64,000 nt of DNA, taken from positions 1-64,000 of the forward strand of contig CABZMT010000005.1 of the NCBI GenBank assembly GCA_902526965.1, read 5' to 3'. Under the pieces are notes generated by a model. That model ran no database searches. It was not told the DNA's origin and saw only the letters and a list, made by a program, of their open reading frames with translations. Both the position numbers and the translations under genes were made by a program. Shown here piece by piece: positions 27,343 through 52,876 of the stretch. Source of the DNA: an uncultured Alphaproteobacteria bacterium. GTDB taxonomy: Bacteria; Pseudomonadota; Alphaproteobacteria; HIMB59. Numbering within the stretch: position 1 is the stretch's first letter; every line of letters begins with the position of its first letter.

Positions 27343-27873
27343 CTATCTATAGATCTTCTTTTTTTTCTTTATTTTGTCTTGAAGTTGCATGATGCCATAT
27401 AAAAGTGCTTCGGCAGTGGGGGGACAACCTGGAACATAAATATCTACAGGAACAATTCTGTCACAACCTCGAACAACTGAGTAGGAGTAATGATAGTATC
27501 CACCACCATTCGCACATGATCCCATTGATATAACCCATCGAGGTTCTGGCATTTGATCGTAAACTTTTCTCAAGGCTGAGGCCATCTTGTTGGTTAATGT
27601 ACCAGCTACAATCATTACATCAGATTGTCTCGGAGATCCTCTAGGTATTACACCTAATCTATCTAAATCATATCTACTCATATAGGAGTGCATCATTTCA
27701 ACACCACAGCATGCTAGACCAAAAGTCATAGGCCATAAAGATCCTGACCTAGCCCAATTAATTAAATTTTCAAAAGATGCTGTCACAAAACCTTTTTTTT
27801 CAAAAAGCTCATCGATATTTAATGATTTATCTTTTTCTAAAACTACTCCCAATCTAATGCTCCATTTCTCCAC
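27343..27873 (-). CDS. nuoB: NADH-quinone oxidoreductase subunit B
   Basis: [82 protein letters not shown]. Confidence 0.97.
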
Positions 27874-28202
27874 TCATAAATAAAACCAACTGTTAAAATA
27901 AATAAAAAAAACATCATCGAATAAAAACCAAGAGCCCCTATATTGCCAAGACTCACAGCCCATGGAAATAAAAATGCAATTTCCAAATCAAAAATTATAA
28001 ATAGAATTGAAACTAAATAGAATTTCACATCAAATTTTGAGCGTGTGTCATCGAAAGCCTCAAATCCACACTCGTAAGCAGATAGTTTCTCAGAGTCAGG
28101 AGAACTGGGAGCTAGTATTTTGGATAATAGAAACATAGCTATTGCCATACCAGCACCAATAAGGATAAATATCAAAATAAAGATATAGTCTAAGTTATAC
28201 AT
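27843..28202 (-). CDS. nuoA: NADH-quinone oxidoreductase subunit A
   Basis: [41 protein letters not shown]. Confidence 0.96.
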
Positions 28203-28268: not shown

Positions 28269-28313
28269 ATGACGCATTAGTCATACACACTAATTATTAA
28301 AATCTGTGTGTAT
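28269..28313. promoter_or_regulatory. overlapping inverted repeats upstream of nuoA (candidate operator)
   Basis: ATGAC-GCATTA-GTCAT (28269-28284) overlapping ATACACAC (28283-28290)...GTGTGTAT (28306-28313). Confidence 0.35.
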
Positions 28314-28554
28314 AATTTGCAATTTTATTCAGCTATTTACGTTGAAAAACAAGGATATTAAAGTATATAAATTTTTTTAATTTTTTAACAAACTTACTTA
28401 AATTCTCAAAACAAATAATACGGTAAAAAGAATTGATAGAAATATCAAATAAATAGAATTGTTTTAACAAGATATAAAATCTGATTCATGATTTATATGA
28501 ATATTATAATATTGGTTTAAAGAAAAAAACCTTGAAATTTTGAGTTTTTAATAA

Positions 28555-31500
28555 TTAAAACCTGTATTGCCCCATTAAACCCATACTAATTGAGGAATTA
28601 TTACCCTCTATATGGTTATAATCACGTATTTGATTTATGTTAACACCGATATCAATTTCATCGTTGAGAGAGTGTAAATAATTAATATTTAAATCAAGTT
28701 GTCTACCAGAGCTTTTTAGATCAATATCTTTTTCTGTATATGGAATATTTCCATTACTATCAGCTAACCCAGGTATACGAATTTTCATTGAACCGTCTTC
28801 TATTCTATTTGGCTGATTTACTGAAAGGGATAATTTATTATTTTTATCAGCTATTTGATGAAATGACAAAGATGCATTCATACTTGAGCTAATTACATTT
28901 GAGGTTCCCTCAATCAAACTATGTTTAGAATTGTCCATTTTTGATTGAGCTAATGTTCCTGAAAAACTAAAAGATATATTATTTACTCTCTTACCTAAAT
29001 TAATTCCAGTAAAAAGAGAATTTGGATTAGAACTTCGATAACCTAAAGCACCCTCACCTTTAGAAAATAAGAAAGTGTCCTCCTCATTTAATATACCTAA
29101 TATAAATTCTACTTTTGTATCCTCATTGGTATCTATTTCAAAAGTGGCTGCTAGTGTGTCGGTTTTTAAATCACTTTGAAGATTTTCTCCTTCAAATTCT
29201 GAGTTATGATAGCCCAGCACAGTACTAATCTTTCCTATTTTAAGCTCTGTATTGATACCAAGACCTTTTGTTTCTCCAATAAATGGGTTTTTTTGTGCAC
29301 CGTAATAAAAATTATTATTATTATTAAAATTTGCAAATTTTTGAATTGCTGCATTAGGCGCCTCTAATGTTACGTAGGTGCCAGTTCTTTGATCCGGATT
29401 AGTAAAGAGTAATGCATTTGCTGGGTCAAATTCTAAAGTAAAATTACTTTGATCATCTATCTGTCCTAATTTTGATGTATGTTTATTTATATTATAAGAA
29501 GGAGGTTTTTGAATTGTCTGATCAACATTGAGAAGAGAAGACATATTAAACTTAAATCCACCGTTTAATCCATCATAGAAATATCCAGTTTCTTTACTTA
29601 AAGCATTTGATATAGAGTCACCAAAACTTGAAGAATTTTTAAGGGATGTCGAAGATAAAGAGAACCTACTTGGGTTTTGATTATTACTACTAGAAGCTGC
29701 TTGCTGGGATAAGCCTTCAGATAAATTATTACCAGTAGTTATTGATGCTGGATTTCTGTTTGATGTTATTGGACTTAATGCTGCATAAAAATCAGGAACA
29801 CCATGACCCCAAGTGTTATGATAACCATGAGTAATACTAGCACCATGTGAAGTAAATGTAGTATTTCCTGCAGGAGTGAACCAATCATTATTAGCTGAAG
29901 CTAAAATTCTATCAGTAATTTGTTCTGGAGTATGATTTGGAAATGCCTGACTTAATAAAGCTATACCACCAGCAACCATTGGAGCAGAGTAAGAAGAACC
30001 TGAACCGTTAACAGAATAATTATGAGTTAATCCTCCATTAGTTCTCCAACCTCCACCATTTAATTGATATCCATCAACAGTTAAACAGTATTGTTCAGCG
30101 CTTCCACATTTGTTACCATGTAATGTAAAATCAGACTCACTAGCAGAAGCTATATCACTACCTGTAAAATCAGATAAATTTACTACTAACCAAGCTTCAG
30201 CTAACTGAGGATACCATTTAGGTAATGCGGCAACTGCTGAAACATCACTTTCATAAGTAGAATTTCCTGCAGCAAATACAACTACACCATTATTTTGAAA
30301 ATTATCTAAAGCTGTAACATATTGTTGTGCTTCTGATACAGCAGCAGTAGTTCCATCCAATAAATAAGCTACTAATTGATCCGTTGAATAAACGCCACTA
30401 TAAGTAGTTATAAGTGATTGTAATTCTGTAGCATTAAAATTACAGTTTGCATCTCCTGATGCACAAGTTGTAACTCCAGATCTATCACTAGATGCCCAGC
30501 TCTGATTAGAAGCTACTGCACTGTAACCTCTTGCACTATCTAAATCTCTTGCATGGTCATCTGCACAATAAGAACCGAGACAATCAGGTATAGAAGATAG
30601 AATTAAATCTGCATCTGGAGCTACTCCAACAACTAGATTCTCACCTGCATTATCTCCTGTACCAGTACCATCTCCAGCCGCCATAGATGCAACAAATTGA
30701 CAATGATGACTAGCTGAAGTTGCTGCACCAAAAGTGCTTTCTCCTGAACCACCATCATCTAAGTTGATAATTGTTTTATTTGCATAAACCAAGTGATCAT
30801 CATCACAATTGAAGTCTGCAATATGGATATATTTACCTACACCTGTCAAATTATTTGATCCGTCGGTGAAAGATTGAACTTTATGAATATTCATTTGTTC
30901 ATAAGGATGAACAGTACTTGCGCTAGAAGCATTATCCACGAGACCCCAATGTGTCTCTGCTTTTATTGCATTTTGAGCAGAAGTACTGCCCTCACTAAAT
31001 GCAGTTGCAGTTCTTAATGCATATTCTGTTATCGTAATAGTAACAGATGTTGTTCCTGATGTTGAAGAGTCAGCTCCTGAAACACTTGAAATAGATATCG
31101 TTGCTGTCTCTGATCCTTCATTAACTGTATCTTCAGTTGGATTAAATGTTGCCGTACCTGTTGTAGATCCAGCACTAATAGTAATATCAGAAATATCCGC
31201 GTAATCTGTTCCTTCAGTAGCTGTACCACTTGTTCCTATTAATACTGTTATATCTTCATCCGCTTCTTGTGTTGAAGTTGCTGTTAGAGTGATATTGAGA
31301 CCATTGTCATAAACACTAGAACTACTTGCTCCAATTGATACTGTAGGGGCGCTTTCATTATCTGTAATTGTGACTGTTGCTGTACTGTCACTTATAGAAC
31401 CTGCAGAAGCGTTAGATAAAGTAATTGTGAAAGTTTCATTACCCTCATAAACAGAGTCATTTGTAATAGACACCGTAAATGTTTCAGAAGTATCTCCTGC

Positions 31501-34500
31501 ACTAAAAGTTAAAGTTCCACTAGTTGATGTATAATCAGTTCCTGCCGTTGCTGTTGAATTTGATGTTGCATATTGTATTGTAGTTGATGAAGCACTAGCA
31601 CTACTCATATCTACAGTAATAGTTGCACTACCTGCATTCTCAGCAACAGTTACATCATCAACTGAAAAACTAAAATTATCATCATCCGTAATGGTAAAGG
31701 TTCCTGTTGAATCACTGATTGTTGCATTTGAGGCATTTGATAATGTCATTGTTACTGTTTCATTTCCTTCATTTACAGTATCAGCAAGAACTGTTACCCC
31801 TATCGTGCCTGTCGTACTTCCAGCACTGATAATTAAAGTGCCACTTGTTGCCGTATAATCTGATCCTGCTGTTGCTGTTCCATTTGATGTAGCATAATCA
31901 ACCGTTACATCTCTTCCAGATGCAGCTGATAATGTTACTGTCATATTTGTTGACGTGTTACTTTCATCTGACGTGGAAACATCATTAATAGATAAAGACG
32001 GTGTTGCGTCATCATCCGTAATGGTAAAGGTTCCTGTTGAGTCGCTTATTGTTGCATTTGATGCACTAGATAAGGTCATGGTCACTGTTTCATTTGCTTC
32101 ATCCAATGAGTCAGCTAATACTGTTATACCAATCGTACCAGTTGTATCACCAGCACTAATTGTTAGCGTACCAGAGGTAGCTGTATAGTCTGAGCCAGCA
32201 GTTGCTGTTCCGTTTGAAGTTGCATAATTGACAGTAACATCCCTTCCAGCAGCAGCAGAAAGAGTTACTGTCATGTTGGTAGCAGTATTGTTTTCGTTAG
32301 AAGTTGTTACATCATTAATTGAAAGTGACGGTGTTGCATCATCATCTGTAATGGTAAATGTTCCTGTTGAATCACTAATGGTTGCATTGGATGAACTGGA
32401 TAATGTCATCGTTACAGTTTCATTTGCTTCATCTAAAGCGTCAGCGAGAACAGTTACAGCGATAGTCCCTGTTGTACTTCCAGCACTGATAGTTAAGGTA
32501 CCACTTGTTGCTGTATAATCACTTCCAGCAGTTGCTGTTCCGTTTGAAGTTGCATAATTGACAGTGACATCCCTTCCAGCAGCAGCAGAAAGAGTTACTG
32601 TCATGTTTGTAGATGTATTATTTTCGTTGGAAGTTGTCACGTCATTGATAGATAAAGAAGGTGTGGCATCATCATCCGTAATAGTGAAAGTACCAGTTGA
32701 GTCGCTAATAGAAGCATTCGAAGCATTAGATAAAGTCATCGTAACTGTTTCATTTGCCTCGTCTAACGTATCAGCAAGAACAGTGACTCCTATTGTTTTA
32801 GTTGTTTCACCAGCACTAAAAGTAAGTGTTCCACTAGTCGCCGTATAATCAGAACTTGCGGTAGCCGTACCATTGGATGTAGCATAATCAACCGTCACTG
32901 TTTTTGCTGAAGCAGCAGAGAGTGTTACTGTCATGTTTGTTGCTGCATTACTTTCGTCTGATGTTGAAACATCATTGATGGATAAAGATGGTGCATCTTC
33001 ATCATCGGTAATGGTAAAAGTTCCTGTTGCATCACTTATGTTTGCATTTGATGCATTTGATAAGGTCATGGTGACTGTTTCATTATTTTCATCAGTAGAG
33101 TCTGCAAGAACAGTTACAGCAATAGTTTTAGATGTTTCGCCAGCACTAAATGTTAATGTTCCACTTGTTGCTGTATAGTCTGAACCAGCAGTTGCTGTTC
33201 CGTTTGATGTTGCGTAATCAACAGTCACAGTTTTAGTTGATGCATCAGATAATGTTACCGTCATGTTTGTTGATGTGTTACTTTCATCTGAAGTCGTAAC
33301 ATCATTAATGGATAAATTAGGTGTATCATTATCTGTTATTGTGACTGTTCCAGTTGAATCACTAATAGTTCCATTAGATGCATTACTAATAGTGATGGTA
33401 ATAGTTTCACTACTTTCATCAGTGCTATCATCTGTTATAGATACTGAAAATGTCTTGGAGGTATCACCAGCACTAAATGTTAGAGTCCCATTTGTTGCCG
33501 TATAATCAGAACCTGCTGTTGCCGTACCATTAGAAGTCGCATAGTCAATAGTCACATCACTTGAATAGGCATTACTTACCGAAACGGTAACAGTTGCAGA
33601 TCCTGCCCCTTCTGCAACAGTAACATCAGCAACAGAAAAACTTCCACTATCATCATCAGTAATTGTTATCGTTTCAGCTTGTGTTCCACTTTCTGTAGCA
33701 CTACCGCCAGATACACTTGTGACTGCAATGGTAGCGGTTTCATTACCTTCTACTATGGAATCATTTGTCGGTGTAAAAGAAACAGTACCCGTCGTACTAC
33801 CAGCACTAATAGTGATATCATCTAAGTTACCACTTCCATCCGTATAATCCGTTCCTTCTGTTGCTGTACCTGATGTACCTAGTGCAGCGGTCACATCTTG
33901 ATATGTTCCATTTGATAAAGTAGCAGTTACAGTCAGTGATGTACCTGCATTCTCTGCAATAGAAGTAGCACTCGTAGAGAGTGTTAAAGTTGGTGCTGAC
34001 TCATTATCAGTAATAGTAATCGTAACTGCTTGTGTTCCATTTTCTGATGCCCCTCCTCCACTGACAGCTGAAACAGAAATACCTGCTGTTTCATTTGAAG
34101 TAGCATCATAAATACTATCATCCGTTGGAGTAAAAGATGTTGTTCCTGTTGTTGATCCTGCACTAATAGTTATATCAGATACCGTTCCAAAATCTGTTCC
34201 TTCAGTACCTGTACCTCCAGTTCCATCTATTGATACTGTTACGTCTTCATAAGTTGCATTACCTATAGTAGCTGTTAAAGTTAAAGATGATCCTGCATTC
34301 TCAGCAATACTATTTGCACTAGTAGTTAATGTAACAGAAGGCGCACTTTCATTATCCGTAATTGTTATGGTGACTTCTTGCGGTGTACTATTTTCGGCAA
34401 CACCAGTTTTTCCTGAAACACCGTTAATAGAAATAGTTGCTGTTTCATTCGATGTTGCATCATAAATACTATCATCTGTTGGAGTGAAATTAACAGTACC

Positions 34501-37500
34501 TGTGGTACTACCAGCTGAAATCGTAATATCATCAATATTCCCCGAGCCATCGGTATAATCTGTTCCTTCCGTTGCGGTACCTGACGTATCTAAAGCAACT
34601 GTAATGGCAGAATCCGTTGCACCACTTAATGTAGCCGTCAGAGTTAATGAAGATCCTGCATTCTCAGCAATACTAGTTGCGCTAACAGTTAAAGTTACAG
34701 TTGGCGCACTTTCATCATCTAAAATTGTTACAACTACATATTGTGTCCCACCAGAAATATATGCGTCTCCACCAGATACACTACTAATCGAAATTGTTGC
34801 TGTTTCATTTCCTTCGTAAATGGAGTCATTTGTTGGTGTAAAGTTAACACTTCCTGTTGTACTTCCTGCACTAATTGTAATGTCATCAATATTTCCACTA
34901 CCATCTGTGTAATCAGTTCCTTCGGTTGCTGTTCCTGATGTACCTATAACAACAGTAACATCTTCATCAGCAGCTCCTGTTAGGGTTGCCGTTATTGTTT
35001 TGGAATTTCCTGAATTTTCTGCAAGAGTTGATGAACTTAAAGTTAAAATAACTCCAGGTGCAGATTCATCTTCAGTGATTGTTACAGTGACAGATTGAGA
35101 ACCACTTTCACTAGCACCACCTCCTGAAACTCCTGAAATAGATATGCCTGCTGTTTCATTTCCTTCATAAACAGAGTCATCGGTTGGATCTACTGCTGCA
35201 GTGCCTGTTGTAGCACCTGCACTTATCGTTATATCTGAAACTGTTCCAAAGTCAGTTCCCTCTGTACCTGTTCCCCCTGTTCCATCAATAGTAACTGTTA
35301 CATCTTGATAAGTTGCATTAGATAAAGTTGCAGTAATAGTAACAGTGCTAGAAGAATCTTCATCTATAGCAGCTGCACCTCTTGATAATGTAACTGTTGG
35401 AGCGCTTTCATCATCCGTAATTGTTATTGTTACATTTTGTGTTCCATCTTCAGTGGCACTACCACCAGATACACCGCTTATATCTATTGTTGCTGTCTCA
35501 TTTGATGCAGCATCATAAATTGAGTCGTTTGTTGGTGTAAAACTCACTGTTCCTGTTGTCGAGCCAGCAGAAATTACAATATCATCAATTGATCCACTAC
35601 CATCAGTATAATCTGTTCCCTCAGTTGCTGTGCCAGAAGTTGATAGAGCAACAGTGACATCAGCAGTTGTTGCAACTGATAACGTGGCAGTTAATGTTAA
35701 CGAAGTACCAGCATTCTCTGCAATGGATGTTGCACTTGTTGCAAGTGTTACAGTTGGTGCTGATTCATTATCCGTAATAGTAATTGTTTTTGATTGAGAA
35801 CCACTTTCTGTTGCGCTTCCACCCGAAACACTACTAATAGCAAGAGTGGCAGTCTCATTTCCTTCATAGATAGAGTCATCAGTTGGTGTAAAGTTAACTG
35901 TTCCAGTTGTTGCACCAGCACTAATTGTGATATCATCAACATTACCGCTACCATCAGTGTAATCGGTGCCTTCTGTTGCTGTACCACTTGTACTTAAAGC
36001 AACAGTGACTGCTTCATCAGTCGCTCCAGATAGTGTTGCCGTTACGGTAATAGAAGTACCAGCATTCTCTGCAATCGATGTTGCACTAACACTTAGAGTA
36101 ACTGTTGGTGCACTTTCATTTTCTGTTATTGTGACTGTAACTGATTGATCACCGTTTTCTGATGCATCTCCACCTGATACACTGCTGATAGCAATCGTAG
36201 CAGTTTCATTTCCTTCATAAACTGAATCATCTGTTGGGGTAAAGTTAACTGTGCCTGTCGTACTTCCTGCACTAATGGTAATATCATCTATTACTCCACT
36301 ACCATCTGTGTAATCTGTTCCCTCAGTAGCTGTTCCTGACGTTGATAGAGCAACAGTAACATCTTCATCACTTGTACTAGAGAGAGTTGCGGTTATAGTA
36401 AGAGAAGTACCGGCATTCTCTGCAATAGAAGTTGCGCTAACAGTTAAAGTAACACTTCCCGCACTTTCATTATCTCTAATCTCAATCGTAGCTGATTGTG
36501 ATCCACTCTCTGTTGCACTTCCACCTGAAACACTACTAATTGCAATTGTTGCAGTTTCATCTCCTTCATAGACACTATCATCTGAAACAATAAAGTTTGT
36601 AGATCCTGTCGTACTTCCTGCGCTAATAGTGATGTCATCAAGATTACCAGAACCATCAGTGTAATCAGTTCCTTCTGTTGCTGTACCACTTGTACTTAAA
36701 GCAACAGTTACATCTTCATCTGTTGCACCAGATAATTTTGCTTCTATTATTAAAGACGTCGATGAATCATTCTCATTAATCCATGTACTTGCGTATTCAT
36801 ATCCTAAACCACCTTTTTTAACATATAAAGTAACAGTAGGCGCTGATTCATTTTCTGTAATAGTTATAGTAACTGCTTGAGTTCCACTCTCACTTGCTTC
36901 ACCGGTAACGCTACTTATAGCAATGGTAGCTGTTTCATTTCCTTCATAGACACTATCATCAGTTGGCGTAAACGAAACAGTACCAGTGGTACCTCCTGAA
37001 CTAATCGTAATATCATCAACATTACCACTTCCATCGGTATAATCCGTTCCTTCCGTTGCTGTACCAGATGTACCTAATACAACGGTAACATTTTGATCAG
37101 TTGCACCTGATAATGTTGCCGTTAAGGTCAATGATGTTCCAGCATTCTCTGCAATCGATGTTGCGCTTACTGCAAGTGTTACTGTTGGCTCAGATTCATT
37201 TTCAGTTATTGTAACTGTTACTGATTGTGTTCCACTTTCTGTTGCATCAGCACCTGATACCGTATCAATCGCTATAACAGCTGCTTCATCATCTTCATAC
37301 ACACTATCATCTGTTGGTGTAAAGTTGACTGTTCCTGTTGTGTCTCCTGCACTAATCGTAATATCATCAATGTTTCCTGAACCATCTGTATAATCTGTTC
37401 CTTCGGTTGCAGCACCACTTGTACTTAATGCAACTGTTACAGGATCATCAGTTTTTATCGAAAGAGTTGCTGTTAATGTAACTGAAGAACCTGCATTCTC

Positions 37501-40500
37501 TGCAATGGATGTTGCACTTGTTGCAAGTGTGACGGTTGGCGCTGATTCATTATCCGTAATAGTAATTGTTTTTAATTGAGAACCACTTTCTGTTGCACTT
37601 CCTCCAGAAACTGAATGTATATATATCACTGCGGATTCATTTCCTTCATAAACAGGATCTGCCGCATCATCTATTGGCGTAATATTAATAGTTCCTGTTG
37701 TACTACCAGCATTAATAACAATATTATCGATAGAACCAGAACCATCGTTGTAATCGGTTCCGTAAATGGCTCTTGTAGTGTCACCAGAATTTGCACCTAA
37801 TGTTTTAAGGACAACGGTTACATCTTCTGTAGTAGCTGTAGATAAAGTCGCTGTTAATGTAACTGAGGAGCCTGCATTCTCTGCAATAGACGTAGCACTT
37901 GCTGAAAGAGTTACTGTTGGTGCACTTTCATCTTCTGAAATTGTAATCGTAACAGATTGCGTTCCACTTTCCGTTGCACTTCCACCTGAGACACTACTAA
38001 TAGCAATCGTAGCCGTTTCATCACCTTCATACACACTGTCATTAGTTGGTGTAAAGTTAACCGTACTTGTTGTGCTTCCAGCACTGATGGTTATATCATC
38101 AATATTTCCTGATCCATCCGTGTAATCGGTTCCTTCGGTTGCTGTTCCAGAAGTTGATAATGCAACTGTAACATCAGCAGTTGTTGCAACTGATAATGTT
38201 GCTGTTAATGTTAGAGATGATCCAGCATTCTCTGCTATACTTGTTCCACTTGTACTTAAAGTAACTGTTGGTGCACTTTCATTTTCTGTAATTGTAATAG
38301 TAACAGCTTGAGAGCCGCTTTCACTTGCTCCACCACCCGACACACCAGACACAGAAATACCTGCTGTTTCATTTCCTTCATAAACATTATCGTCTGTTGG
38401 ATCAAAAGTTACAGTACCTGTAGTACTGCCAGCACTAATTGTAATGTCTGATACTGTACCAAAGTCTGTTCCTTCTGTTCCTGTACCACCGGTCCCATCA
38501 ATTGATACTGTAACATCTTGGAAGGTGGCAGTTGATACAGTAGCTGTTAAGGTAATTGTATCACTAGAATTTTCTGCAATAGATGATGATGCCGCTGCTA
38601 ATGTAACGGTTGGTGCAGATTCATTATCTGTTATTGTTATCGTAACTGTTTGCGGTGTACTATTTTCGGCAACACCCGTTTTTCCTGAAACGCCATTAAT
38701 TGATATGGTTGCAGTTTCATTTGAAGCCGCATCATAAATACTATCATCGGTTGGTGTGAACGACACCGTTCCTGTTGTAGCACCAGCACTAATAGTAATA
38801 TCATCGATATTACCTGAGCCATCGGTATAATCGGTTCCCTCAGTCGCTGTACCAGCAGTATCTAAAGCAACAGTAATATCTGCATCTGTTGTGCCACTTA
38901 ATGTAGCTGTTAATGTTAATGATGATCCTGCATTCTCCGCAATAGTTGTATCACTTACTGCCAAAGTAACAGTTGGTGCAGATTCATTATCTGTAATAGT
39001 TATTGTAACTGCTTGCGGTGTACTATGTTCTGTAACACCCGTTTTTCCAGTGACACTAGCAATCGACAAAGTTGCTGTTTCATCTCCTTCGTAAACGGTA
39101 TCATTAACTAAGGAGAAGTAAGCAAAAGCTGATGTATTACCAGCCGAAATAGTAATGTCAGGAAATACATTAGCATTATTGTAGTCAGTTCCTTCTGTTG
39201 CAGTTCCTGATGTATCAATACCAACAGTTATTGTTTCATCTGTTGCACCGGATAGAGTCGCTGTTACGGTTAAAGCCGATCCATTCTCAGCTACAGTAGT
39301 TGCATCAACAGAAAGTGTTACAGTAACTGCACTTTCATTTTCTGTAATTGTTATAGTAACAGATTGCGAACCACTCTCTGATGCTCCACCTCCTGAAACA
39401 CTTGCGATAGAAATGATTGCCGTTTCATTTCCTTCATAAATAGAATCATCTGTTGGCGTAAAGTTAACGGTACCTGTCGTACTTCCTGCACTAATAGTAA
39501 TATCATCAACATTACCACTTCCATCAGTGTAGTCTGTTCCCTCAGTTGATGTACCGCCTGTATCAATTCCAACAGTTACCGTTTCATCTGTTGCACCTGA
39601 TAATGTTGCGGTTAACGTTAACGATGATCCCGAATTCTCTGTTATAGAAGTTGCACTTACACTTAAAGAAACTGTTGGTGCAGATTCATTTTCTGTAATT
39701 GTTATCGAAACTGATTGCGATCCACTCTCACTAGCACTTCCTCCGGAGACGCCATCAATTGTAACAGTGACTGTTTCATCATCTTCGTAAACAGAGTCAT
39801 CGGTTGGATCAAGAGACGTTGTCCCTGTTGTGCTACCTGCACTAATCGTAATATCAGAAATCGTAGCATAATCTGTTCCTTCTGTTCCACCTGAAGCACC
39901 AATACTGACCGTAACATCTTGATAGGTTGCATTCGATAATGTTGCAGTAATTGTAACAGTGCTAGAAGAATTTTCATCTATAGCTGCAGCACTTCTTGAT
40001 AAAGTAACTGTTGGTGCACTTTCATTATCGGTAATAGTAATTGTTACAGATTGAGTTCCATTTTCTAGTGCATCACCTCCTGAAACTGAATCAATAGACA
40101 CCGTTGCTGTTTCATTCGATGTTGCATCATACAAACTATCATCTGTTGGTGTAAAAGTTGTTGTTCCTGTTAATGATCCAGCAGTAACAGTAATGTTTGA
40201 TAAAGATCCATAATCTGTTCCCTCTGTAGCACTTCCAGATGTACCAAGTGTAACAGTAACGTTTTCTGCTGCCGTTTTAGATAGCGTTGCCGTCAATGTT
40301 AAGGATGAACCAGCATTTTCTGCAATCGATGTTGCGCTAACAGTTAAGGTAACACGCGGAACACTTTCATCATCTAAAATACTAATGGTAACTGATTGCG
40401 AACCACTCTCACTAGCACCACCACCGCTTACACCGCTTATGGCAATTGTTGCGGTAACAGTATCTGTTTCATCGGAGTCATCAGTTGGATCAAAGGTTGC

Positions 40501-43500
40501 CGTTCCTGTTGTGGAACCAGCACTAATTGTAATATCAGATACATTTCCGTAATCCGTTCCCTCAGTTGCCGTACCAGATGTTCCAATTGAAACAGTTACA
40601 TCTTGATAGGTTGCATTTGATAGAGTTGCTGTTAACGTAATTGTTGAGGCAGAATTTTCTGCAATACTTGTCGCCGATGCTGCTAAGGTAACAGTTGGTG
40701 CACTATCATCATCTGTTATTGTAATTGTTACTGATTGCGATCCACTCTCACTAGCACTGCCACCAGAGACACCACTTATAGCAATTGTTGCAGTTTCATC
40801 TGATGCTGCATCATACAAACTATCATTTGTAGGCGTAAAGCTTACTGTACCTGTTGTTGATCCAGCAGAAATAACGATATCATCTAAATTTCCTGAACCA
40901 TCTGTATAGTCTGTTCCCTCTGTTGCGGTACCACTTGTACTCAAAGCAACAGTAACATCAGCTGTTGTTGCAACAGATAACGTTGCAGTTAGTGTTAATG
41001 ATGTTCCAGCATTCTCTGCTATACTTGTTGCACTTGTTGCAAGTGTGACGGTTGGTGCTGATTCATTTTCTGCAATTGTGACACTTACTTGTTGTGTTCC
41101 ATTTTCGGTAACACCAGATTTTCCCGAAACACTACTAATATCAATTGTAGCTGTTTCATCATCCTCGTAAATATTATCATCCGTTGGATCAAGTGTTGCC
41201 GTTCCTGTTGTTGCCCCTGCACTAATCGTAATATCAGAAATTGTTCCGTAATCAGTTCCCTCTGTTGCTGTACCGGACGTATCAAGCGCTACGGTAACAG
41301 CTGAATCTGTTACACCAGATATAGTCGCTGTTAATGTTACAGTAGAAGCAGAATTTTCATCAATGGATGCAGCACTTCTTGCTAACGTAATTGTTGGTGC
41401 ACTTTCATTTTCCGTAATCGTAATTGTAACAGATTGTGATCCACTCTCACTAGCATCAGCACCTGAGACACTACTAATTGCAATGATTGCTGTTTCATTT
41501 CCTTCATAAACTGAGTCATCAGTTGGTGTAAAGTCAACTGTTCCTGTTGTAGAACCTGCACTAATGGTAATATCATCAACGTTACCTGAACCATCGGTGT
41601 AATCGGTGCCTTCTGTTGACGTACCAGAAGTTGATAAAGAAACTGTAACAGCCTCATCTGCAGCAACAGATAACGTAGCTGTTAAGGTTAATGATGAACC
41701 AGCGTTCTCTGCAATAGATGTTGCACTGACAGTTAAAGCTACAGTCGGTGCCGATTCATTTTCACTAATTGTAATAGTAACAGACTGTGAGCCACTCTCA
41801 CTTGCTCCTCCACCCGATACACCAGTAATTGCAAGGGTTGCAGTTTCATCATTTTCATAAACTGAATCATCAGTTGGGGTAAAGTTAACTGTTCCTGTCG
41901 TACTACCCGCACTAATGGTTATATCATCAACGTTACCACTTCCATCAGTATAGTCCGTTCCCTCTGTTGCACTACCAGAAGTTCCAAGTGCTACAGTTAC
42001 TGTTTCATCTGTTGTCCCGGACAACGTTGCTGTTAATGTGAGAGACGATCCAGCATTCTCTGCTATTGAAGTTGCACTTACAGCAAGTGTAACTGTTGGG
42101 GCGCTTTCATTTTCTGTAATCGTAACGGTAACTGATTGTGTTCCACTTTCTGTTGCATCAGCACCTGATACTGTATCAATGGCGATAACAGCTGCTTCAT
42201 CATCTTCATACACACTATCATCGGTTGGTGAGAAACTTACTGTTCCTGTTGTTGAACCTGCTGAAATGGTAATATCATCTAAATTACCAGAACCATCGGT
42301 ATAGTCTGTACCTTCGGTTGCAGCACCACTTGTGCTTAGAGATACTGTTACATCTTCATCAGCAACATTTGATAATGTAGCAGTTAGGGTAAGAGATGAA
42401 CCTGAATTCTCCGCAATACTTGTTGAACTAACTGCAAGTGTAACTGTTGGAGCTGACTCATTTTCTGAAATAGTAACAGTAACTGATTGTGATCCATTTT
42501 CACTTGCACCACCTCCAGAAACCGTGTCAATCGCAATAACTGCAGCTTCATCACCTTCATACACGCTGTCGTCTGTTGGTGTAAAAGATACGGTACCAGT
42601 TGTCGAACCAGCTGAAATTGTTATATCATCTAAGTTACCACTTCCATCTGTAAAGTCTGTGCCTTCTGTTGCAGCACCGCTTGTACTTAATGCAACTGTT
42701 ACCGCTTCATCAACTTTAATAGATAGGGTCGCCGTTAAAGTAACTGAAGAGCCTGAATTCTCAGCAATCGATGCAGCACTTCTTGTTAAAGTAACTGTAG
42801 GAGCACTTTCATTTTCTGTTATCGTTATTGTAACTGACTGCGAACCACTTTCTGTTGCACCACCTCCAGAAACAGATCCTATAGAAATAATTGCTGTTTC
42901 ATTTTCTTCATAAACAGGATCACCAGAGTCATCACTTGGTGTAAATGAAACGGTACCTGTTGTTGACCCAGCAGAAATGGTAATATCATCGAGATTGCCA
43001 GAACCATCAGTATAATCCGTTCCCTCTGTTGCTGTCCCTGCTGTATCGATGCCAACTGTAACATTTTCATCTGTTGCACCAGATAGAGTTGCTGTAATGG
43101 TTAGCGATGATCCTGCATTTTCCGCAATCGATGTTGCGCTCACACTTAAAGTAACAGTTGGTGCACTTTCATTTTCAGAAATCGTAATGGTAACGGATTG
43201 TGTTCCACTTTCTGATGCACCACCACCAGATACACTTCCAATTGAAATTGTTGCACTTTCATCATCCTCGTAAACTGAGTCATCTGTTGGCGTAAAGTTC
43301 ACGGTTCCTGTTGTGCTTCCAGCACTAATAGTAATATCATTGATGGCACCACTTCCATCCGTATAGTCTGTTCCTTCTGTTGCTCCACCCGATGTATCAA
43401 TACCAACGGTAACATCTTGGAAAGTTGCACCAGATAACGTAGCTGTTAAAGTTAAAGACGATCCTGCATTTTCTGCAATAGATGTTGCGCTAACACTTAG

Positions 43501-46476
43501 AGTAACAGTAGGAGCACTTTCATTATCAGTTATGGTAATGGTAACTTTTTGGTCACCACTTTCCGTTGCTCCACCACCTGAAACGCCACTGATAGAAAGG
43601 ATAGCAGTTTCATTTGACGTTGCATCATAGAGACTATCATCTGTTGGTGTAAACGTTGCTGTTCCAGAGGTTGATCCAGAAGAAATAGTTATGTCCGAAA
43701 CAGTGCCATAATCTGTTCCTTCTGTTGCAGTGCTAGAACTTGATAAAGAAACAGTTACATCTTGACTTGTTGTTCCACTTAATGATGCAGTAATTGTAAT
43801 GGATGAACCTGCATTCTCCGCAATGCTTGTTGCACTTGCCGCTAATGTTACTGTTGGAGCTGATTCATTTTCGTTTATTGTAATTGTAACAGCTTGTGTT
43901 CCATTTTCTGTTGCTGAACCACCACTAACTGTATCAATAGCAACAGTTGCCGTTTCATCTGTTGAAGTTTCATACATACTATCATCAGTAGGTGTAAAGG
44001 TTGTTGTTCCTGTTGTTGCACCAGCGCTAATGGTAATATCAGATAGAGATCCGTAATCTGTTCCCTCTGTTGCTGTACCACTTGTACTAAATGTAACTGT
44101 AATGTCTGATCCTGATACAATTGAACTGGTTGCTGTTAAAGTTAAAGATGATCCTGCATTCTCTGCAATGCTTGTTGCACTAACAGTTAATGTAACAGTT
44201 GGCGTTGCTTCATTATCATTTATTGTAATTGTAACTGATTGCGATCCACTCTCTGTTGCATCTGCTCCTGATACGCTGCTTATTGCAACAATGGCAGTTT
44301 CGGCTACATCAGAAATACTATCATCAGTTGGATCAAAAGTTGCCGTCCCAGTTGTGTTACCAGCAGTAATTGTAATATCAGAAATTGTTCCATAATCTGT
44401 TCCTTCAGTTGCGGTACCAGAGGTTGAAATTCCAACAGTAATATTTTCATCTGCAACAATAGATGATGTAGCTGTAATAGTTAGAGTAGATCCTGAGTTC
44501 TCCGCTATAGAGGTAGCACTAACGGTTAAAGCAACAGTTGGTGCGTTTTCGTTTTCAGCTATTGTTATACTTACAGCTTGTGTGCCACTTTCTGTTGCTT
44601 CTCCCCCAGATACACCACTAATAGAAATTGTTGCTGTTTCGTCTCCTTCATAAACGCTATCGTCCGTTGGATTAAAACTAATTGTTTCAGTGGTATTGCC
44701 AGCTGTAATAACAAGATCATCAATATTTCCACTACCATCTGTATAATCTGTTCCTTCTGTAGCAGTACCTGAAGTTGCAATAGTAACTGTAACATCAGCT
44801 GTTGTTGCAACTGACAAAGTTGCAGTTAATGTTAATACAGAACTGGAATTTTCATCAATGCTAGTTGCACTTGTTGATAATGTTACAGTTGGTGCACTTT
44901 CATTTTCTTCAATCGTTATGGTAACTGATTGCGATCCACTTTCAGTAGCACTACCACCTGAGACGCCTGTAATAGAGATTGTTGCTGTTTCATCAGTGCT
45001 TGTTTCGTATAAATTGTCATCTGTTGGTGTGAAAGATGCTGTTCCAGTTGTGTCTCCAGAGGAAATAGTAATATCAGAAATTGTTCCATAATCTGTTCCT
45101 TCCGAAGCACTTCCAGATGTTCCAATTGAAACAGTTACATCTTCACTTGTAGGGTTTGACAACGTTGCAGTTAATGTAATTGAAGTGCCAGCATTTTCTG
45201 CAATACTAGATGAACTAGCAGCAAGAGTTACTGATGGCGCACTGTCATTTTCTTCAATGGTTATTGTTACAGATTGAGAACCACTTTCGGTAGCTCCGCC
45301 TCCTGAAACAGTGTCAATAGCAATAGTAGCTGTTTCATCTGTAGATGTTTCATACATACTGTCATCAGTAGGTGTGAAGGTTGTTGTACCTGTGGTTGAA
45401 CCAGCTGAAATAGTAATATCTGATATTGTTCCATAATCTGTTCCTTCGGTTGCAGTACCAGAAGTATCAAATGATACAGTTATATCTGAACCAGAAATAA
45501 TCGAACTAGTTGCAGTCAATGTAATAGAAGACCCTGAATTTTCTTCTATACTTGTAGTATTAGCAGCAAGAGTAATAGTTGGAGCAGCCTCGTTATCTAT
45601 TATGGTAATTGTTGACGATGTTAAAGGTGTATTACATAGATTAGTATCTGCACTAATTGGAGTTAAAGTAAGAATTACTGTTTCATTAATGTCAGAAATA
45701 GAGTCATCTGTTGGTGTAAGTGAAAAGGTCTCTGAAGTATTAGATATTGTTAAGTCTGGTATCGTTTCATAATCTGTACCCTCTGTGGCAGTTCCTCCCG
45801 TAGTAATTGAATATGTTGTACCAGTAACTACCCCATCAAATGTTAAAGTGAAATCAATTGTATCTGATGAATTTTCATTGATAGATGTTGCTGTTTGAGT
45901 TAAAACCGCATTAATTTCACATGTTTCAACAGAATTTATAAGGTATCTATAAGGTAAATAAAATAAAGCTGCAGCAAGAGATAGTGTATCATCATCTACT
46001 TCATTGATTGATTCATTTTGATTTATTTTGCCTGTTGGCAATGACTCAAATAATCGAGGTAGTAGGTCTGATTTTTTAAGAACAACTTCTTCAATAATAG
46101 GTTTGTCACCCCGTAATAACTTATCAATCGCATAAATATGATTTGGGTATTTTTTTAAATAATTATCAATCTGAATTCTTTGCTTTAAGTCATAATTATC
46201 TATGTTTAAATATTGATTTACTTCAAAACCAAAATTAATAATTTCAAAAAAGTCATTTGGTAATTCCTCACCTAATGTGTAATAAAAGCTGTTATAAAAT
46301 CTTTTATTAAATTTATTAAAGCAATTTTTTATATTTGAAGCGTAGACATTTAAATCATTGCTAAATGGAATACATTCATTAATTTCTTCATAATCTTTGA
46401 ATTTTACCTCATTAGCTAAACTGCTAGAAAAGATCGATAAAGAAATTATCCAAAATAATAAAAATTTTTTTAACAT
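28555..46476 (-). CDS. giant secreted/surface protein (5973 aa): signal peptide, ~43 Calx-beta-type repeats, S8 subtilisin-like protease, C-terminal OM barrel-like (autotransporter-like) region
   Basis: Single uninterrupted ORF; N-terminal MLKKFLLFWIISLSIFSSSLANE; tandem repeats APTVTLxxSATSIAENAGSSLTLTATLS...GTATEGTDYTDGSGNxDDITISAGSTTGTVxFTPTDDSVYEGNETATIxISSVSGGxATESGSQSVTITITENES; protease motifs HIADFNCD, HHCQFVAS, VVFAAGNS, GSSYSAPMVAGG; terminal GLMGQYRF. Confidence 0.95.
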   Translation of the reverse strand: MLKKFLLFWIISLSIFSSSLANEVKFKDYEEINECIPFSNDLNVYASNIKNCFNKFNKRFYNSFYYTLGEELPNDFFEIINFGFEVNQYLNIDNYDLKQRIQIDNYLKKYPNHIYAIDKLLRGDKPIIEEVVLKKSDLLPRLFESLPTGKINQNESINEVDDDTLSLAAALFYLPYRYLINSVETCEINAVLTQTATSINENSSDTIDFTLTFDGVVTGTTYSITTGGTATEGTDYETIPDLTISNTSETFSLTPTDDSISDINETVILTLTPISADTNLCNTPLTSSTITIIDNEAAPTITLAANTTSIEENSGSSITLTATSSIISGSDITVSFDTSGTATEGTDYGTISDITISAGSTTGTTTFTPTDDSMYETSTDETATIAIDTVSGGGATESGSQSVTITIEENDSAPSVTLAASSSSIAENAGTSITLTATLSNPTSEDVTVSIGTSGSASEGTDYGTISDITISSGDTTGTASFTPTDDNLYETSTDETATISITGVSGGSATESGSQSVTITIEENESAPTVTLSTSATSIDENSSSVLTLTATLSVATTADVTVTIATSGTATEGTDYTDGSGNIDDLVITAGNTTETISFNPTDDSVYEGDETATISISGVSGGEATESGTQAVSITIAENENAPTVALTVSATSIAENSGSTLTITATSSIVADENITVGISTSGTATEGTDYGTISDITITAGNTTGTATFDPTDDSISDVAETAIVAISSVSGADATESGSQSVTITINDNEATPTVTLTVSATSIAENAGSSLTLTATSSIVSGSDITVTFSTSGTATEGTDYGSLSDITISAGATTGTTTFTPTDDSMYETSTDETATVAIDTVSGGSATENGTQAVTITINENESAPTVTLAASATSIAENAGSSITITASLSGTTSQDVTVSLSSSSTATEGTDYGTVSDITISSGSTSGTATFTPTDDSLYDATSNETAILSISGVSGGGATESGDQKVTITITDNESAPTVTLSVSATSIAENAGSSLTLTATLSGATFQDVTVGIDTSGGATEGTDYTDGSGAINDITISAGSTTGTVNFTPTDDSVYEDDESATISIGSVSGGGASESGTQSVTITISENESAPTVTLSVSATSIAENAGSSLTITATLSGATDENVTVGIDTAGTATEGTDYTDGSGNLDDITISAGSTTGTVSFTPSDDSGDPVYEENETAIISIGSVSGGGATESGSQSVTITITENESAPTVTLTRSAASIAENSGSSVTLTATLSIKVDEAVTVALSTSGAATEGTDFTDGSGNLDDITISAGSTTGTVSFTPTDDSVYEGDEAAVIAIDTVSGGGASENGSQSVTVTISENESAPTVTLAVSSTSIAENSGSSLTLTATLSNVADEDVTVSLSTSGAATEGTDYTDGSGNLDDITISAGSTTGTVSFSPTDDSVYEDDEAAVIAIDTVSGADATESGTQSVTVTITENESAPTVTLAVSATSIAENAGSSLTLTATLSGTTDETVTVALGTSGSATEGTDYTDGSGNVDDITISAGSTTGTVNFTPTDDSVYENDETATLAITGVSGGGASESGSQSVTITISENESAPTVALTVSATSIAENAGSSLTLTATLSVAADEAVTVSLSTSGTSTEGTDYTDGSGNVDDITISAGSTTGTVDFTPTDDSVYEGNETAIIAISSVSGADASESGSQSVTITITENESAPTITLARSAASIDENSASTVTLTATISGVTDSAVTVALDTSGTATEGTDYGTISDITISAGATTGTATLDPTDDNIYEDDETATIDISSVSGKSGVTENGTQQVSVTIAENESAPTVTLATSATSIAENAGTSLTLTATLSVATTADVTVALSTSGTATEGTDYTDGSGNLDDIVISAGSTTGTVSFTPTNDSLYDAASDETATIAISGVSGGSASESGSQSVTITITDDDSAPTVTLAASATSIAENSASTITLTATLSNATYQDVTVSIGTSGTATEGTDYGNVSDITISAGSTTGTATFDPTDDSDETDTVTATIAISGVSGGGASESGSQSVTISILDDESVPRVTLTVSATSIAENAGSSLTLTATLSKTAAENVTVTLGTSGSATEGTDYGSLSNITVTAGSLTGTTTFTPTDDSLYDATSNETATVSIDSVSGGDALENGTQSVTITITDNESAPTVTLSRSAAAIDENSSSTVTITATLSNATYQDVTVSIGASGGTEGTDYATISDITISAGSTTGTTSLDPTDDSVYEDDETVTVTIDGVSGGSASESGSQSVSITITENESAPTVSLSVSATSITENSGSSLTLTATLSGATDETVTVGIDTGGTSTEGTDYTDGSGNVDDITISAGSTTGTVNFTPTDDSIYEGNETAIISIASVSGGGASESGSQSVTITITENESAVTVTLSVDATTVAENGSALTVTATLSGATDETITVGIDTSGTATEGTDYNNANVFPDITISAGNTSAFAYFSLVNDTVYEGDETATLSIASVTGKTGVTEHSTPQAVTITITDNESAPTVTLAVSDTTIAENAGSSLTLTATLSGTTDADITVALDTAGTATEGTDYTDGSGNIDDITISAGATTGTVSFTPTDDSIYDAASNETATISINGVSGKTGVAENSTPQTVTITITDNESAPTVTLAAASSSIAENSSDTITLTATVSTATFQDVTVSIDGTGGTGTEGTDFGTVSDITISAGSTTGTVTFDPTDDNVYEGNETAGISVSGVSGGGASESGSQAVTITITENESAPTVTLSTSGTSIAENAGSSLTLTATLSVATTADVTVALSTSGTATEGTDYTDGSGNIDDITISAGSTTSTVNFTPTNDSVYEGDETATIAISSVSGGSATESGTQSVTITISEDESAPTVTLSASATSIAENAGSSVTLTATLSTATTEDVTVVLKTLGANSGDTTRAIYGTDYNDGSGSIDNIVINAGSTTGTINITPIDDAADPVYEGNESAVIYIHSVSGGSATESGSQLKTITITDNESAPTVTLATSATSIAENAGSSVTLTATLSIKTDDPVTVALSTSGAATEGTDYTDGSGNIDDITISAGDTTGTVNFTPTDDSVYEDDEAAVIAIDTVSGADATESGTQSVTVTITENESEPTVTLAVSATSIAENAGTSLTLTATLSGATDQNVTVVLGTSGTATEGTDYTDGSGNVDDITISSGGTTGTVSFTPTDDSVYEGNETATIAISSVTGEASESGTQAVTITITENESAPTVTLYVKKGGLGYEYASTWINENDSSTSLIIEAKLSGATDEDVTVALSTSGTATEGTDYTDGSGNLDDITISAGSTTGSTNFIVSDDSVYEGDETATIAISSVSGGSATESGSQSATIEIRDNESAGSVTLTVSATSIAENAGTSLTITATLSSTSDEDVTVALSTSGTATEGTDYTDGSGVIDDITISAGSTTGTVNFTPTDDSVYEGNETATIAISSVSGGDASENGDQSVTVTITENESAPTVTLSVSATSIAENAGTSITVTATLSGATDEAVTVALSTSGTATEGTDYTDGSGNVDDITISAGATTGTVNFTPTDDSIYEGNETATLAISSVSGGSATESGSQSKTITITDNESAPTVTLATSATSIAENAGTSLTLTATLSVATTADVTVALSTSGTATEGTDYTDGSGSIDDIVISAGSTTGTVSFTPTNDSIYDAASNETATIDISGVSGGSATEDGTQNVTITITDDESAPTVTLSRGAAAIDEDSSSTVTITATLSNATYQDVTVTIDGTGGTGTEGTDFGTVSDITISAGATTGTAAVDPTDDSVYEGNETAGISISGVSGGGASESGSQSVTVTITEDESAPGVILTLSSSTLAENSGNSKTITATLTGAADEDVTVVIGTSGTATEGTDYTDGSGNIDDITISAGSTTGSVNFTPTNDSIYEGNETATISISSVSGGDAYISGGTQYVVVTILDDESAPTVTLTVSATSIAENAGSSLTLTATLSGATDSAITVALDTSGTATEGTDYTDGSGNIDDITISAGSTTGTVNFTPTDDSIYDATSNETATISINGVSGKTGVAENSTPQEVTITITDNESAPSVTLTTSANSIAENAGSSLTLTATIGNATYEDVTVSIDGTGGTGTEGTDFGTVSDITISAGSTTGTTSFTPTDDSIYDATSNETAGISVSAVSGGGASENGTQAVTITITDNESAPTLTLSTSATSIAENAGTSLTVTATLSNGTYQDVTAALGTSGTATEGTDYTDGSGNLDDITISAGSTTGTVSFTPTNDSIVEGNETATIAVTSVSGGSATESGTQAETITITDDDSGSFSVADVTVAEGAGSATVTVSVSNAYSSDVTIDYATSNGTATAGSDYTATNGTLTFSAGDTSKTFSVSITDDSTDESSETITITISNASNGTISDSTGTVTITDNDTPNLSINDVTTSDESNTSTNMTVTLSDASTKTVTVDYATSNGTATAGSDYTATSGTLTFSAGETSKTIAVTVLADSTDENNETVTMTLSNASNANISDATGTFTITDDEDAPSLSINDVSTSDESNAATNMTVTLSAASAKTVTVDYATSNGTATASSDYTATSGTLTFSAGETTKTIGVTVLADTLDEANETVTMTLSNASNASISDSTGTFTITDDDATPSLSINDVTTSNENNTSTNMTVTLSAAAGRDVTVNYATSNGTATAGSDYTATSGTLTISAGSTTGTIAVTVLADALDEANETVTMTLSSSSNATISDSTGTFTITDDDATPSLSINDVTTSNENNTATNMTVTLSAAAGRDVTVNYATSNGTATAGSDYTATSGTLTISAGDTTGTIGITVLADSLDEANETVTMTLSSASNATISDSTGTFTITDDDATPSLSINDVSTSDESNTSTNMTVTLSAASGRDVTVDYATSNGTATAGSDYTATSGTLIISAGSTTGTIGVTVLADTVNEGNETVTMTLSNASNATISDSTGTFTITDDDNFSFSVDDVTVAENAGSATITVDMSSASASSTTIQYATSNSTATAGTDYTSTSGTLTFSAGDTSETFTVSITNDSVYEGNETFTITLSNASAGSISDSTATVTITDNESAPTVSIGASSSSVYDNGLNITLTATSTQEADEDITVLIGTSGTATEGTDYADISDITISAGSTTGTATFNPTEDTVNEGSETATISISSVSGADSSTSGTTSVTITITEYALRTATAFSEGSTSAQNAIKAETHWGLVDNASSASTVHPYEQMNIHKVQSFTDGSNNLTGVGKYIHIADFNCDDDHLVYANKTIINLDDGGSGESTFGAATSASHHCQFVASMAAGDGTGTGDNAGENLVVGVAPDADLILSSIPDCLGSYCADDHARDLDSARGYSAVASNQSWASSDRSGVTTCASGDANCNFNATELQSLITTYSGVYSTDQLVAYLLDGTTAAVSEAQQYVTALDNFQNNGVVVFAAGNSTYESDVSAVAALPKWYPQLAEAWLVVNLSDFTGSDIASASESDFTLHGNKCGSAEQYCLTVDGYQLNGGGWRTNGGLTHNYSVNGSGSSYSAPMVAGGIALLSQAFPNHTPEQITDRILASANNDWFTPAGNTTFTSHGASITHGYHNTWGHGVPDFYAALSPITSNRNPASITTGNNLSEGLSQQAASSSNNQNPSRFSLSSTSLKNSSSFGDSISNALSKETGYFYDGLNGGFKFNMSSLLNVDQTIQKPPSYNINKHTSKLGQIDDQSNFTLEFDPANALLFTNPDQRTGTYVTLEAPNAAIQKFANFNNNNNFYYGAQKNPFIGETKGLGINTELKIGKISTVLGYHNSEFEGENLQSDLKTDTLAATFEIDTNEDTKVEFILGILNEEDTFLFSKGEGALGYRSSNPNSLFTGINLGKRVNNISFSFSGTLAQSKMDNSKHSLIEGTSNVISSSMNASLSFHQIADKNNKLSLSVNQPNRIEDGSMKIRIPGLADSNGNIPYTEKDIDLKSSGRQLDLNINYLHSLNDEIDIGVNINQIRDYNHIEGNNSSISMGLMGQYRF
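31025..45935 (-). repeat. tandem Calx-beta-type repeat array, ~43 units of ~330-350 bp (two sequence classes)
   Basis: Counted by eye from the protein: 35 class-A units (about 33655-45935), 7 class-B units (about 31360-33655) and one A-like unit next to the protease. Confidence 0.85.
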
Positions 46477-46617
46477 CTGCTTATAAAAAAATAATTATTT
46501 AATTTTATTATATTTGAAATCACAAAAAAAGACCGTATTTCAATGATATTATGAACTTAAATTTACAAAATTCTTGTATGTAAAATTTTTTATTTATTTT
46601 CCAATATTTTATGATCT

Positions 46618-46700
46618 TGTTCACCTTATGTTCACCTAAAAAAGAAATCTTGTGAAATTAATTGAAATTTTATTTAATTAAGGTTGGAATAAGGTGAACA
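46618..46700. promoter_or_regulatory. TGTTCACCT repeat cluster upstream of the giant gene (candidate operator)
   Basis: TGTTCACCT at 46618-46626 and 46629-46637 (11-bp phasing); perfect 12-bp inverted copy TGTTCACCTTAT (46618-46629) vs ATAAGGTGAACA (46689-46700). Confidence 0.45.
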
Positions 46701-46750
46701 GATAACTATTGAAAATACTAAGAAATATGTAACATCCTACCTTATAAAAG

Positions 46751-46828
46751 TGGCGGGAGCGACGGGACTCGAACCCGCGACCTCCTGCGTGACAGGCAGG
46801 CGTTCTAACCAAACTGAACTACACCCCC
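46751..46828 (-). tRNA. tRNA-Asp (GTC)
   Basis: GGGGGTGTAGTTCAGTTTGGTTAGAACGCCTGCCTGTCACGCAGG...GGTTCGAGTCCC...CCA; anticodon stem CCTGC/GCAGG, loop CTGTCAC; CCA encoded. Confidence 0.95.
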
Positions 46829-46934: not shown

Positions 46935-47216
46935 TTAGACTGTGGACTTTATTAGTTCTTTTAGCTGTTTTCCAGCAAGAAATTTTGGCTTTTTTGATGC
47001 AGGAATTTGGATTGACTCACCCGTTCTTGGGTTTCTTCCAGTTTTAGCTTTAGTGTCTGCTACCTTGAAAGTACCAAAACCGGCAATCTTAACATCGCCT
47101 CCAGCCTTTAAAGTAGATGTAATAATATCAAATAAACTTTCAACAGCCTTAGTTGCATCTGATTTTCCAACACCATTTTTCGTACTATATTCAGCAATGA
47201 GTTCATTTTTATTCAT
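46935..47216 (-). CDS. hupB: DNA-binding protein HU
   Basis: MNKNELIAEYSTKNGVGKSDA...GFGTFKVADTKAKTGRNPRTGESIQIPASKKPKF. Confidence 0.95.
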   Translation of the reverse strand: MNKNELIAEYSTKNGVGKSDATKAVESLFDIITSTLKAGGDVKIAGFGTFKVADTKAKTGRNPRTGESIQIPASKKPKFLAGKQLKELIKSTV

Positions 47217-47286
47217 ACCGAACCTCCTTAGTGATTCTATTTATTAATTGTAGTAAGAAAAAAGTATGAAAATCAACAACAATATA

Positions 47287-49704: not shown

Positions 49705-49727
49705 ACTATTAAAATAGTGAGGAATTT

Positions 49728-50981: not shown

Positions 50982-50983
50982 AT

Positions 50984-51574
50984 TTATTTTTCAATTCTAG
51001 TGGTTATAACTTTATCAATCAAACCAAATTTTTGTGCCTCCTCTGGATCAAAGAATCTATCTCTTTCCATTGCTTTTTCAATTTCATTTATACTAATTTT
51101 AGTGTGTTTTTGATAGATCTCGTTAAGTCTTTTTTTTGTCTTTAAAATTTCTTCAGCATGAATTTTAATGTCGCTAGCTTGTCCAGAAAAACCACCTGAT
51201 GGTTGATGTATCATAATTTTAGCATGAGGTAAGGCATATCTATTTCCCTCTTTACCAGCAGCGAGTATCAATGAACCTGCTGAGGCAGCTTGTCCAATAC
51301 ACACTGTATGAACGGGGCATTTAATGTATTGCATTGTGTCATACATAGCAAAGCCAGCAGTAACCAGCCCACCAGGTGAATTGATATATAGATTGATAGG
51401 TTCTTCCGGGTTTTCAGACTCTAAAAATAATAATTGAGCACAAATTAGTGAGGCAGTTTCATCGTTAATTGGGCCTGTAAGAAAGATTATTCTTTCTCTG
51501 AGCAGTCTAGAGAAAATATCAAAAGATCTCTCTCCTTTTCCAGATTGTTCAATGACTATGGGTACCAGATTCAT
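50984..51574 (-). CDS. clpP: ATP-dependent Clp protease proteolytic subunit
   Basis: [31 protein letters not shown]. Confidence 0.97.
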
Positions 51575-52775: not shown

Positions 52776-52788
52776 TTTTTTATTTATT

Positions 52789-52870: not shown

Positions 52871-52876
52871 GCAAAT

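Follow-up and report, generated by a model that had tools for sequence, protein, structure and literature searches.

The window analysed here, 64.0 kb out of a 64.5-kb contig from a 79%-complete draft genome of 1.09 Mb, carries on its minus strand a giant gene that is real, conserved, mobile and mosaic, and whose product is a variant of the subtilase autotransporters rather than a separate category. Taking architecture and route as a whole, we think it probable that the gene encodes a giant subtilase-type autotransporter, carried as one-gene cargo at a tRNA-Asp hotspot. On our best reading of the sequence, a Calx-beta fibre would take the place of the usual beta-helix, and the protease would lie at the membrane-proximal end.

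Architecture of the giant protein

The gene is one open reading frame with zero internal stops that accounts for 28% of the window and would make up ∼1.3% of a 1.41-Mb genome, and its product (∼598 kDa) has a pI of 4.05, with 789 D+E against 94 K+R. Homopolymer phase variation was considered and rejected, no run of eight or more being present in the gene. The frame is divided as follows.

28555..46476, minus strand: whole ORF, 5973 aa (ORF list, translation, composition count)
46414..46476, minus strand: predicted Sec signal peptide MLKKFLLFWIISLSIFSSSLA, residues 1-21, without lipobox (sequence, hydropathy peak)
45928..46413, minus strand: N-terminal tip domain, residues 22-183 (no family match; distant relatives; hydropathy)
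31021..45927, minus strand: stalk of 43 Calx-beta repeats, residues 184-5152 (Pfam and own-repeat profile)
29797..30999, minus strand: predicted S8 subtilase domain, residues 5160-5560 (Pfam, alignment, profile against PDB)
29263..29796, minus strand: linker, residues 5561-5738, with a conserved short helix (SFGDSISNALSK) ahead of the barrel (alignment, model)
28558..29262, minus strand: predicted 12-stranded outer-membrane beta-barrel, residues 5739-5973, ending in QYRF (AlphaFold2, Foldseek)

Much of this layout had been read correctly in the initial annotation, which described one unbroken frame (its coordinates proved exact; the strand, which it did not give, is minus) for a giant surface protein in a compact genome, with a signal peptide, about 43 Calx-beta repeats, an S8 protease with Asp/His/Asn/Ser motifs and a C-terminal barrel ending in YRF. 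All of these readings held, the signal peptide being judged of Sec type by inspection and hydropathy, and no frameshift, which had been named as a possible sign of error, was seen in the 17.9 kb of open frame. Overall its architecture stands, whereas the position of the protease and the view of the gene as a fixed lineage feature need correcting.

The tip domain matches no Pfam or NCBIfam family. Two of its cysteines, C35 and C52, are invariant, and a hydrophobic stretch at residues 165-183 might keep the N-terminus in the cell envelope, a point that counts against our best explanation. Its relatives, 14-38% identical, occur in the giant proteins of other genomes and in two shorter ones. We found it in five of 162 genomes of the order, and within the host genus only in this one; that count includes G133 and G147, whose frame lengths equal those of G101 and G100 and which probably duplicate these two genomes. 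The tip is rare, since the viral contigs searched held no copy and 398 phylum-wide genomes yielded only that of its own genome.

Pfam PF03160 matched the stalk 40 times (best E 5.7e-25; 33 of the 40 above cut-off), and a profile derived from its own repeats found exactly 43 copies, of which R1-R35 belong to a first subtype, R36-R42 to a second and R43 to the first again. Membership of the Calx-beta class is supported both by the PF03160 fold matches and by conserved acidic positions: at eight positions, D or E stands in 31 to 43 of the 43 repeats, with counts of 41 or more at seven of them, and we take the eight to correspond to the Ca2+ ligands of the NCX1 Calx-beta domains. A PDB sequence search with two repeats returned just antibody and cadherin noise. 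The stalk is under strong purifying selection, with a dN/dS across families of 0.09-0.10 in R2-R21 (the first 20 repeats compared) and of 0.16-0.23 in R22-R34. An RTX adhesin was ruled out, the RTX motif GGxGxDxxU being absent from the giant protein.

Behind the stalk, PF00082 matched with an E of 2.4e-18 (66.9 bits against a cut-off of 21.8), and D5221, H5258, N5405 and S5495 are invariant in an alignment of 11 sequences from the HIMB59 order, Thioglobus and one Pelagibacteraceae-labelled single-cell genome. The best solved relative found with an S8 profile was 8E7F (E 8.6e-23), the passenger of the subtilase autotransporter Ssp (PMC9977779). AlphaFold2 returned no confident fold for this domain (6-row alignment, mean pLDDT 38), so its identity as an S8 subtilase rests on sequence; the Foldseek matches of a poor 6-sequence model of S8 plus barrel are weak support at most.

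The C-terminal residues 5739-5973 are predicted to form an outer-membrane barrel that ends in an aromatic residue. AlphaFold2, run on 13 aligned barrels, predicted 12 strands with a pTM of 0.65 and a barrel pLDDT that was mostly 75-89. Almost every Foldseek match to this model was an outer-membrane barrel, those of the autotransporters EstA and EspP included, at modest TM-scores of about 0.3-0.5 that do not separate autotransporter from other outer-membrane barrels. None of 11 barrels matched the Pfam autotransporter family (PF03797) at E<=1, a match that is typical of the class and not strictly defining, and a barrel profile found nothing relevant among PDB and Pfam sequence models. Of the two folds that the initial annotation had expected from structure prediction, the barrel was thus obtained, and the S8 domain came back without a confident fold.

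Phage and plasmid record collections gave weak S8 matches at most. Separately, and unexpectedly, phage-like IMG/VR contigs (L096-L105, 6-115 kb) encode autotransporter-like proteases of ∼785-1115 aa, which combine S8 with a barrel-like C-terminal region whose last residue is F and are ∼16-26% identical to the giant protein (e.g. L096:9182-11869 and L105:7211-10558; PHROG 3677 'protease'); their neighbours belong to PHROG exonuclease, thymidine kinase and ATPase families.

A strain-variable island and a mosaic gene

Within the host genus, probably that of HIMB59, the giant gene is a strain-variable one-gene island at a tRNA-Asp hotspot, laid out as follows.

27343..28202, minus strand: right context, nuoA and nuoB, start of the complex I operon (Pfam/NCBIfam)
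28277..46750, no strand: strain-variable insert (DNA homology to 13 congeners)
46617..46750, minus strand: element end adjoining tRNA-Asp, common to five congeners, with three GTTCACC/GGTGAAC motifs (congener comparison)
46751..46828, minus strand: tRNA-Asp(gtc), attachment side of the hotspot (congener comparison)
46842-46917, strand not given: tRNA-Val, adjoining tRNA-Asp
46935..52919, minus strand: left context, hupB, lon, clpX, clpP and tig (Pfam/NCBIfam)

A check of synteny and presence in related genomes, proposed in the initial annotation, was run against 13 congeners, and none of them has the giant gene. In all 13, homology spans hupB, tRNA-Val and tRNA-Asp and ends at ∼46751, the 3' end of tRNA-Asp, or at most ∼135 bp past it; in the 12 whose contig continues, it returns at 28203-28404, ahead of nuoA. 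One of them (G028) has an empty site, where homology ends at 46751 and is back at 28276 with 14 bp between the blocks. Both the boundary at the tRNA 3' end and the empty site in a relative are those of a tRNA-targeted element, and the GTTCACC/GGTGAAC motifs are possible integrase arm sites. The genome is compact, as first described, but the gene does not belong to the fixed content of the lineage: it is strain-variable tRNA-Asp cargo whose stalk is shared across families.

The giant gene is the sole sizeable gene of its insert, and the cargo of the congeners between tRNA-Asp and nuoA (L064-L077) differs widely. A LysE-like exporter, MoxR/DUF58-like genes (identified by eye) or lipoprotein-like genes are found in some; in G012, a close relative whose HupB and NuoA proteins are identical, two different small ORFs occupy the site. 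G011 and G024 carry tyrosine integrase, primase and AAA genes (Pfam-tested in G024; the ORFs of G011 are near-identical at their starts), and G024 also encodes a restriction-type ResIII/Mrr protein and has the tRNA-Asp 3' end a second time. Neither an integrase of its own nor a flanking direct repeat was found in the giant gene's insert, whereas G024 has both.

Colinear giant genes are present in four other genomes, all from a second family of the order (f2, probably the GCA-002718135 family named in PMC10734472) other than that of the host genus. Two are single-cell genomes, with giant proteins of 5295 aa and 37 repeats (L015/G100) and of 5534 aa and 39 repeats (L016/G101). The other two are G065, where the gene is split over two contig ends and taken as one by inference, and G158, where a contig end cuts it inside the protease. 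The series of repeat spacings is nearly equal, position by position, between the giant protein and the other copies. In f2, ∼2-3 kb separate the giant gene from a tyrosine recombinase; the gene adjoins a conserved set comprising a 181-aa secreted TPR-like protein, a 151-aa protein of unknown type, a SIR2-family protein and the tyrosine recombinase (L015:12486-15472, L016:12474-15556, L024:7814-10887).

Identity to the f2 copies over residues 301-4200 is mostly 85-99%, lower in a few windows; between the two families, Lon is 57-58% identical (93-95% within the genus) and HupB about 59%. The stalk is thus highly similar but the tip (37-38% across families), protease and barrel (S8 plus barrel 60-67% over the whole part) are far more divergent; the gene, we conclude, is a recombinant mosaic. 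Between families, stalk dS is 0.28-0.69, against about 1.1-1.6 in the tip, S8 and barrel. These values were obtained by simple counting, which becomes saturated above about 1, so that only their order is meaningful; within f2, stalk dS is 0.46-0.57, like the cross-family stalk values. The lower dS of the stalks argues that these were exchanged between families later than the ends. Over most of the stalk, 7-55% of 4-fold sites differ from the known copies, so the stalk is not a cross-assembled piece of any of them.

Near-identical stalks bear different proteases. Between G100 and G101, dS is 0.19 in the tip and 0.20 in the barrel (the latter 97-100% identical), yet that of the S8 domain is 1.09. 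The stalks of G158 and G101 are mostly 93-100% identical (residues 301-3750), and the protease piece, which in G158 ends at the contig edge, is merely ∼32% identical. The protease of G065 is of a third type, ∼31% identical to that of the giant protein (two contigs joined by inference), and the membrane-proximal repeats likewise vary among copies. Because stalks are nearly constant and proteases differ, natural chimaeras for testing the role of the protease already exist.

Shorter relatives occur as well. Stalk-less S8-barrel homologues of ∼817-862 aa, found in the same order and in Thioglobus, have lipoprotein-like N-termini (a Cys and a Gly run) and a layout resembling lipidated NalP and SphB1. 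A Pelagibacteraceae-labelled single-cell genome (L019) encodes 1139 aa with tip, one repeat, S8 and barrel, and the complete 2.6-Mb genome of an alphaproteobacterium from another family (G543, L093:3954-10013) encodes 2019 aa with the same tip, nine Calx-beta repeats, S8 and barrel. The latter, being shorter, is possibly an easier model for study. The simplest history, we infer, is that the stalk grew between a tip and a NalP-like protease-barrel.

Streamlining theory holds that cells with 1.4-Mb genomes should drop costly genes, and this one is still strongly constrained in its stalk and moves between families. It offers a testable case of flexible-island cargo in streamlined ocean bacteria besides glycan and phosphate genes.

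Export and purpose of the fibre

The secretion route, orientation, attachment, Ca2+ binding and function of the giant protein are set out here as we infer them. Sec would export the protein and the C-terminal barrel would insert into the outer membrane, whereupon the passenger would cross C-end first. The subtilase would emerge and fold beside the membrane, the 43 Calx-beta repeats would thread out after it, stiffened by seawater Ca2+, and the small tip domain with its two invariant cysteines would emerge last and end farthest out. With about 4-4.5 nm added per Calx-beta repeat, the product would be a tethered fibre of ∼170-190 nm. The stalk or tip may hold or contact something, and the exchangeable protease may cut proteins near the cell surface. 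A protease between stalk and barrel would, in an autotransporter, sit where the fibre base meets the cell surface; the protease-bearing surface fibre first proposed therefore keeps both its fibre and its protease, with the latter at the base and not at the tip.

The subtilase might instead cut between itself and the barrel, or between the stalk and itself, so that the fibre is shed and the barrel serves as an export pore. We regard such self-release as doubtful. Several subtilase autotransporters work both at the surface and once released (PMC9289746, PMC9977779), and here the protease lies right by the membrane end with a ∼180-residue linker ahead of the barrel; losing a 600-kDa protein, however, would place a heavy burden on a small oligotrophic cell, the retention of tip, stalk and barrel together fits an attached fibre at least equally well, and no cleavage site can be read from the sequence.

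The exchange of proteases has two further readings. We tentatively suggest a modular, horizontally spread protease display, in which the fibre is conserved and protease cassettes and tips are exchanged between families. As a surface counterpart of polymorphic toxins, it could perhaps let streamlined plankton change which foreign proteins (phage, grazer or competitor) are destroyed, a suggestion we hold just as loosely. A dedicated anti-phage or anti-predator device, whose fibre screens the cell and whose variable protease breaks down tail proteins of phages or surface proteins of predators, seems rather unlikely. The different protease modules on near-identical stalks are arms-race-like, the site holds mobile elements (one congener's with the ResIII/Mrr protein) and phages are one of the two named drivers of intraspecific diversity in the order (PMC10734472), but location and variability are indirect, the exporter-like and MoxR/DUF58-like cargo of the site is not defence, and a variable substrate preference would suit nutrition too.

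Strong constraint on the stalk, and the presence of Calx-beta repeats in Ca2+-dependent adhesins such as BapP (PMC12153261), would suit a particle or cell adhesin with the protease in a minor processing role. We consider this improbable, given that the giant protein has neither an RTX motif nor a recognised adhesive domain, that HIMB59 is planktonic and that the protease residues are strictly kept. The likelihoods of self-release, defence and adhesion overlap with that of the giant autotransporter because they concern the purpose of the fibre.

Repeats are difficult to assemble and the source draft is incomplete, but an assembly or binning artefact is very unlikely, and a pseudogene or chimera is ruled out, by the 17.9-kb open frame, a repeat spacing colinear with that of four other genomes (two of which come from single cells), purifying selection on the stalk, flanks that both belong to the host genus, and the 4-fold-site differences from every known copy.

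Comparison with known systems

Known subtilase autotransporters, which cut surface or host proteins, consist of an N-terminal protease, then a beta-helix, then a barrel (PMC9289746, PMC9977779). In common with NalP, SphB1 and Ssp (Group 15, PMC9289746), the giant protein has a signal peptide, an intact S8 triad and a predicted C-terminal barrel of ∼12 strands, and its stand-alone relatives resemble lipoproteins, a group to which NalP and SphB1 belong. It differs in that a 43-repeat Calx-beta stalk precedes its protease, where theirs is N-terminal to a beta-helix, in having no lipobox and in a barrel outside PF03797; it is also about seven times longer than its own stand-alone relatives of ∼817-862 aa. 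The type V-like layout proposed initially thus stands, with a module order (tip, Calx-beta, S8, barrel) reverse to that of the known proteins, whose own order is typical of the class and not strictly defining. In the literature searched, no autotransporter passenger was this large or bore Calx-beta repeats, which counts against our best explanation; no paper joined Calx-beta, autotransporter and subtilase, a protease at the base of a Calx-beta fibre was not on record, and the lone match for giant SAR11 autotransporters was a sponge microbiome paper.

With BapP and with LapA, which also has Calx-beta-like domains (PMC12153261), the giant protein shares tandem Calx-beta modules and a presumed Ca2+-stiffened rod. 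It differs from both in lacking the RTX motif and in having its own barrel and S8 protease, and no type I secretion genes are found among the annotated neighbours (hupB, lon, clp, nuo).

Polymorphic toxin delivery proteins (CDI, two-partner secretion) combine a conserved long stalk with an exchangeable enzymatic module, as does the giant protein. Its module, in contrast, would be an internal surface protease by the barrel, no immunity gene accompanies it, and delivery into prey is not indicated.

Finally, unlike the tRNA-flanked islands, or tycheposons, of streamlined plankton (PMC10872708), the insert of the giant gene is without an integrase and is essentially one gene. As in tycheposons, it ends at a tRNA 3' end, and congeners bear tyrosine recombinase elements at the same tRNA-Asp.
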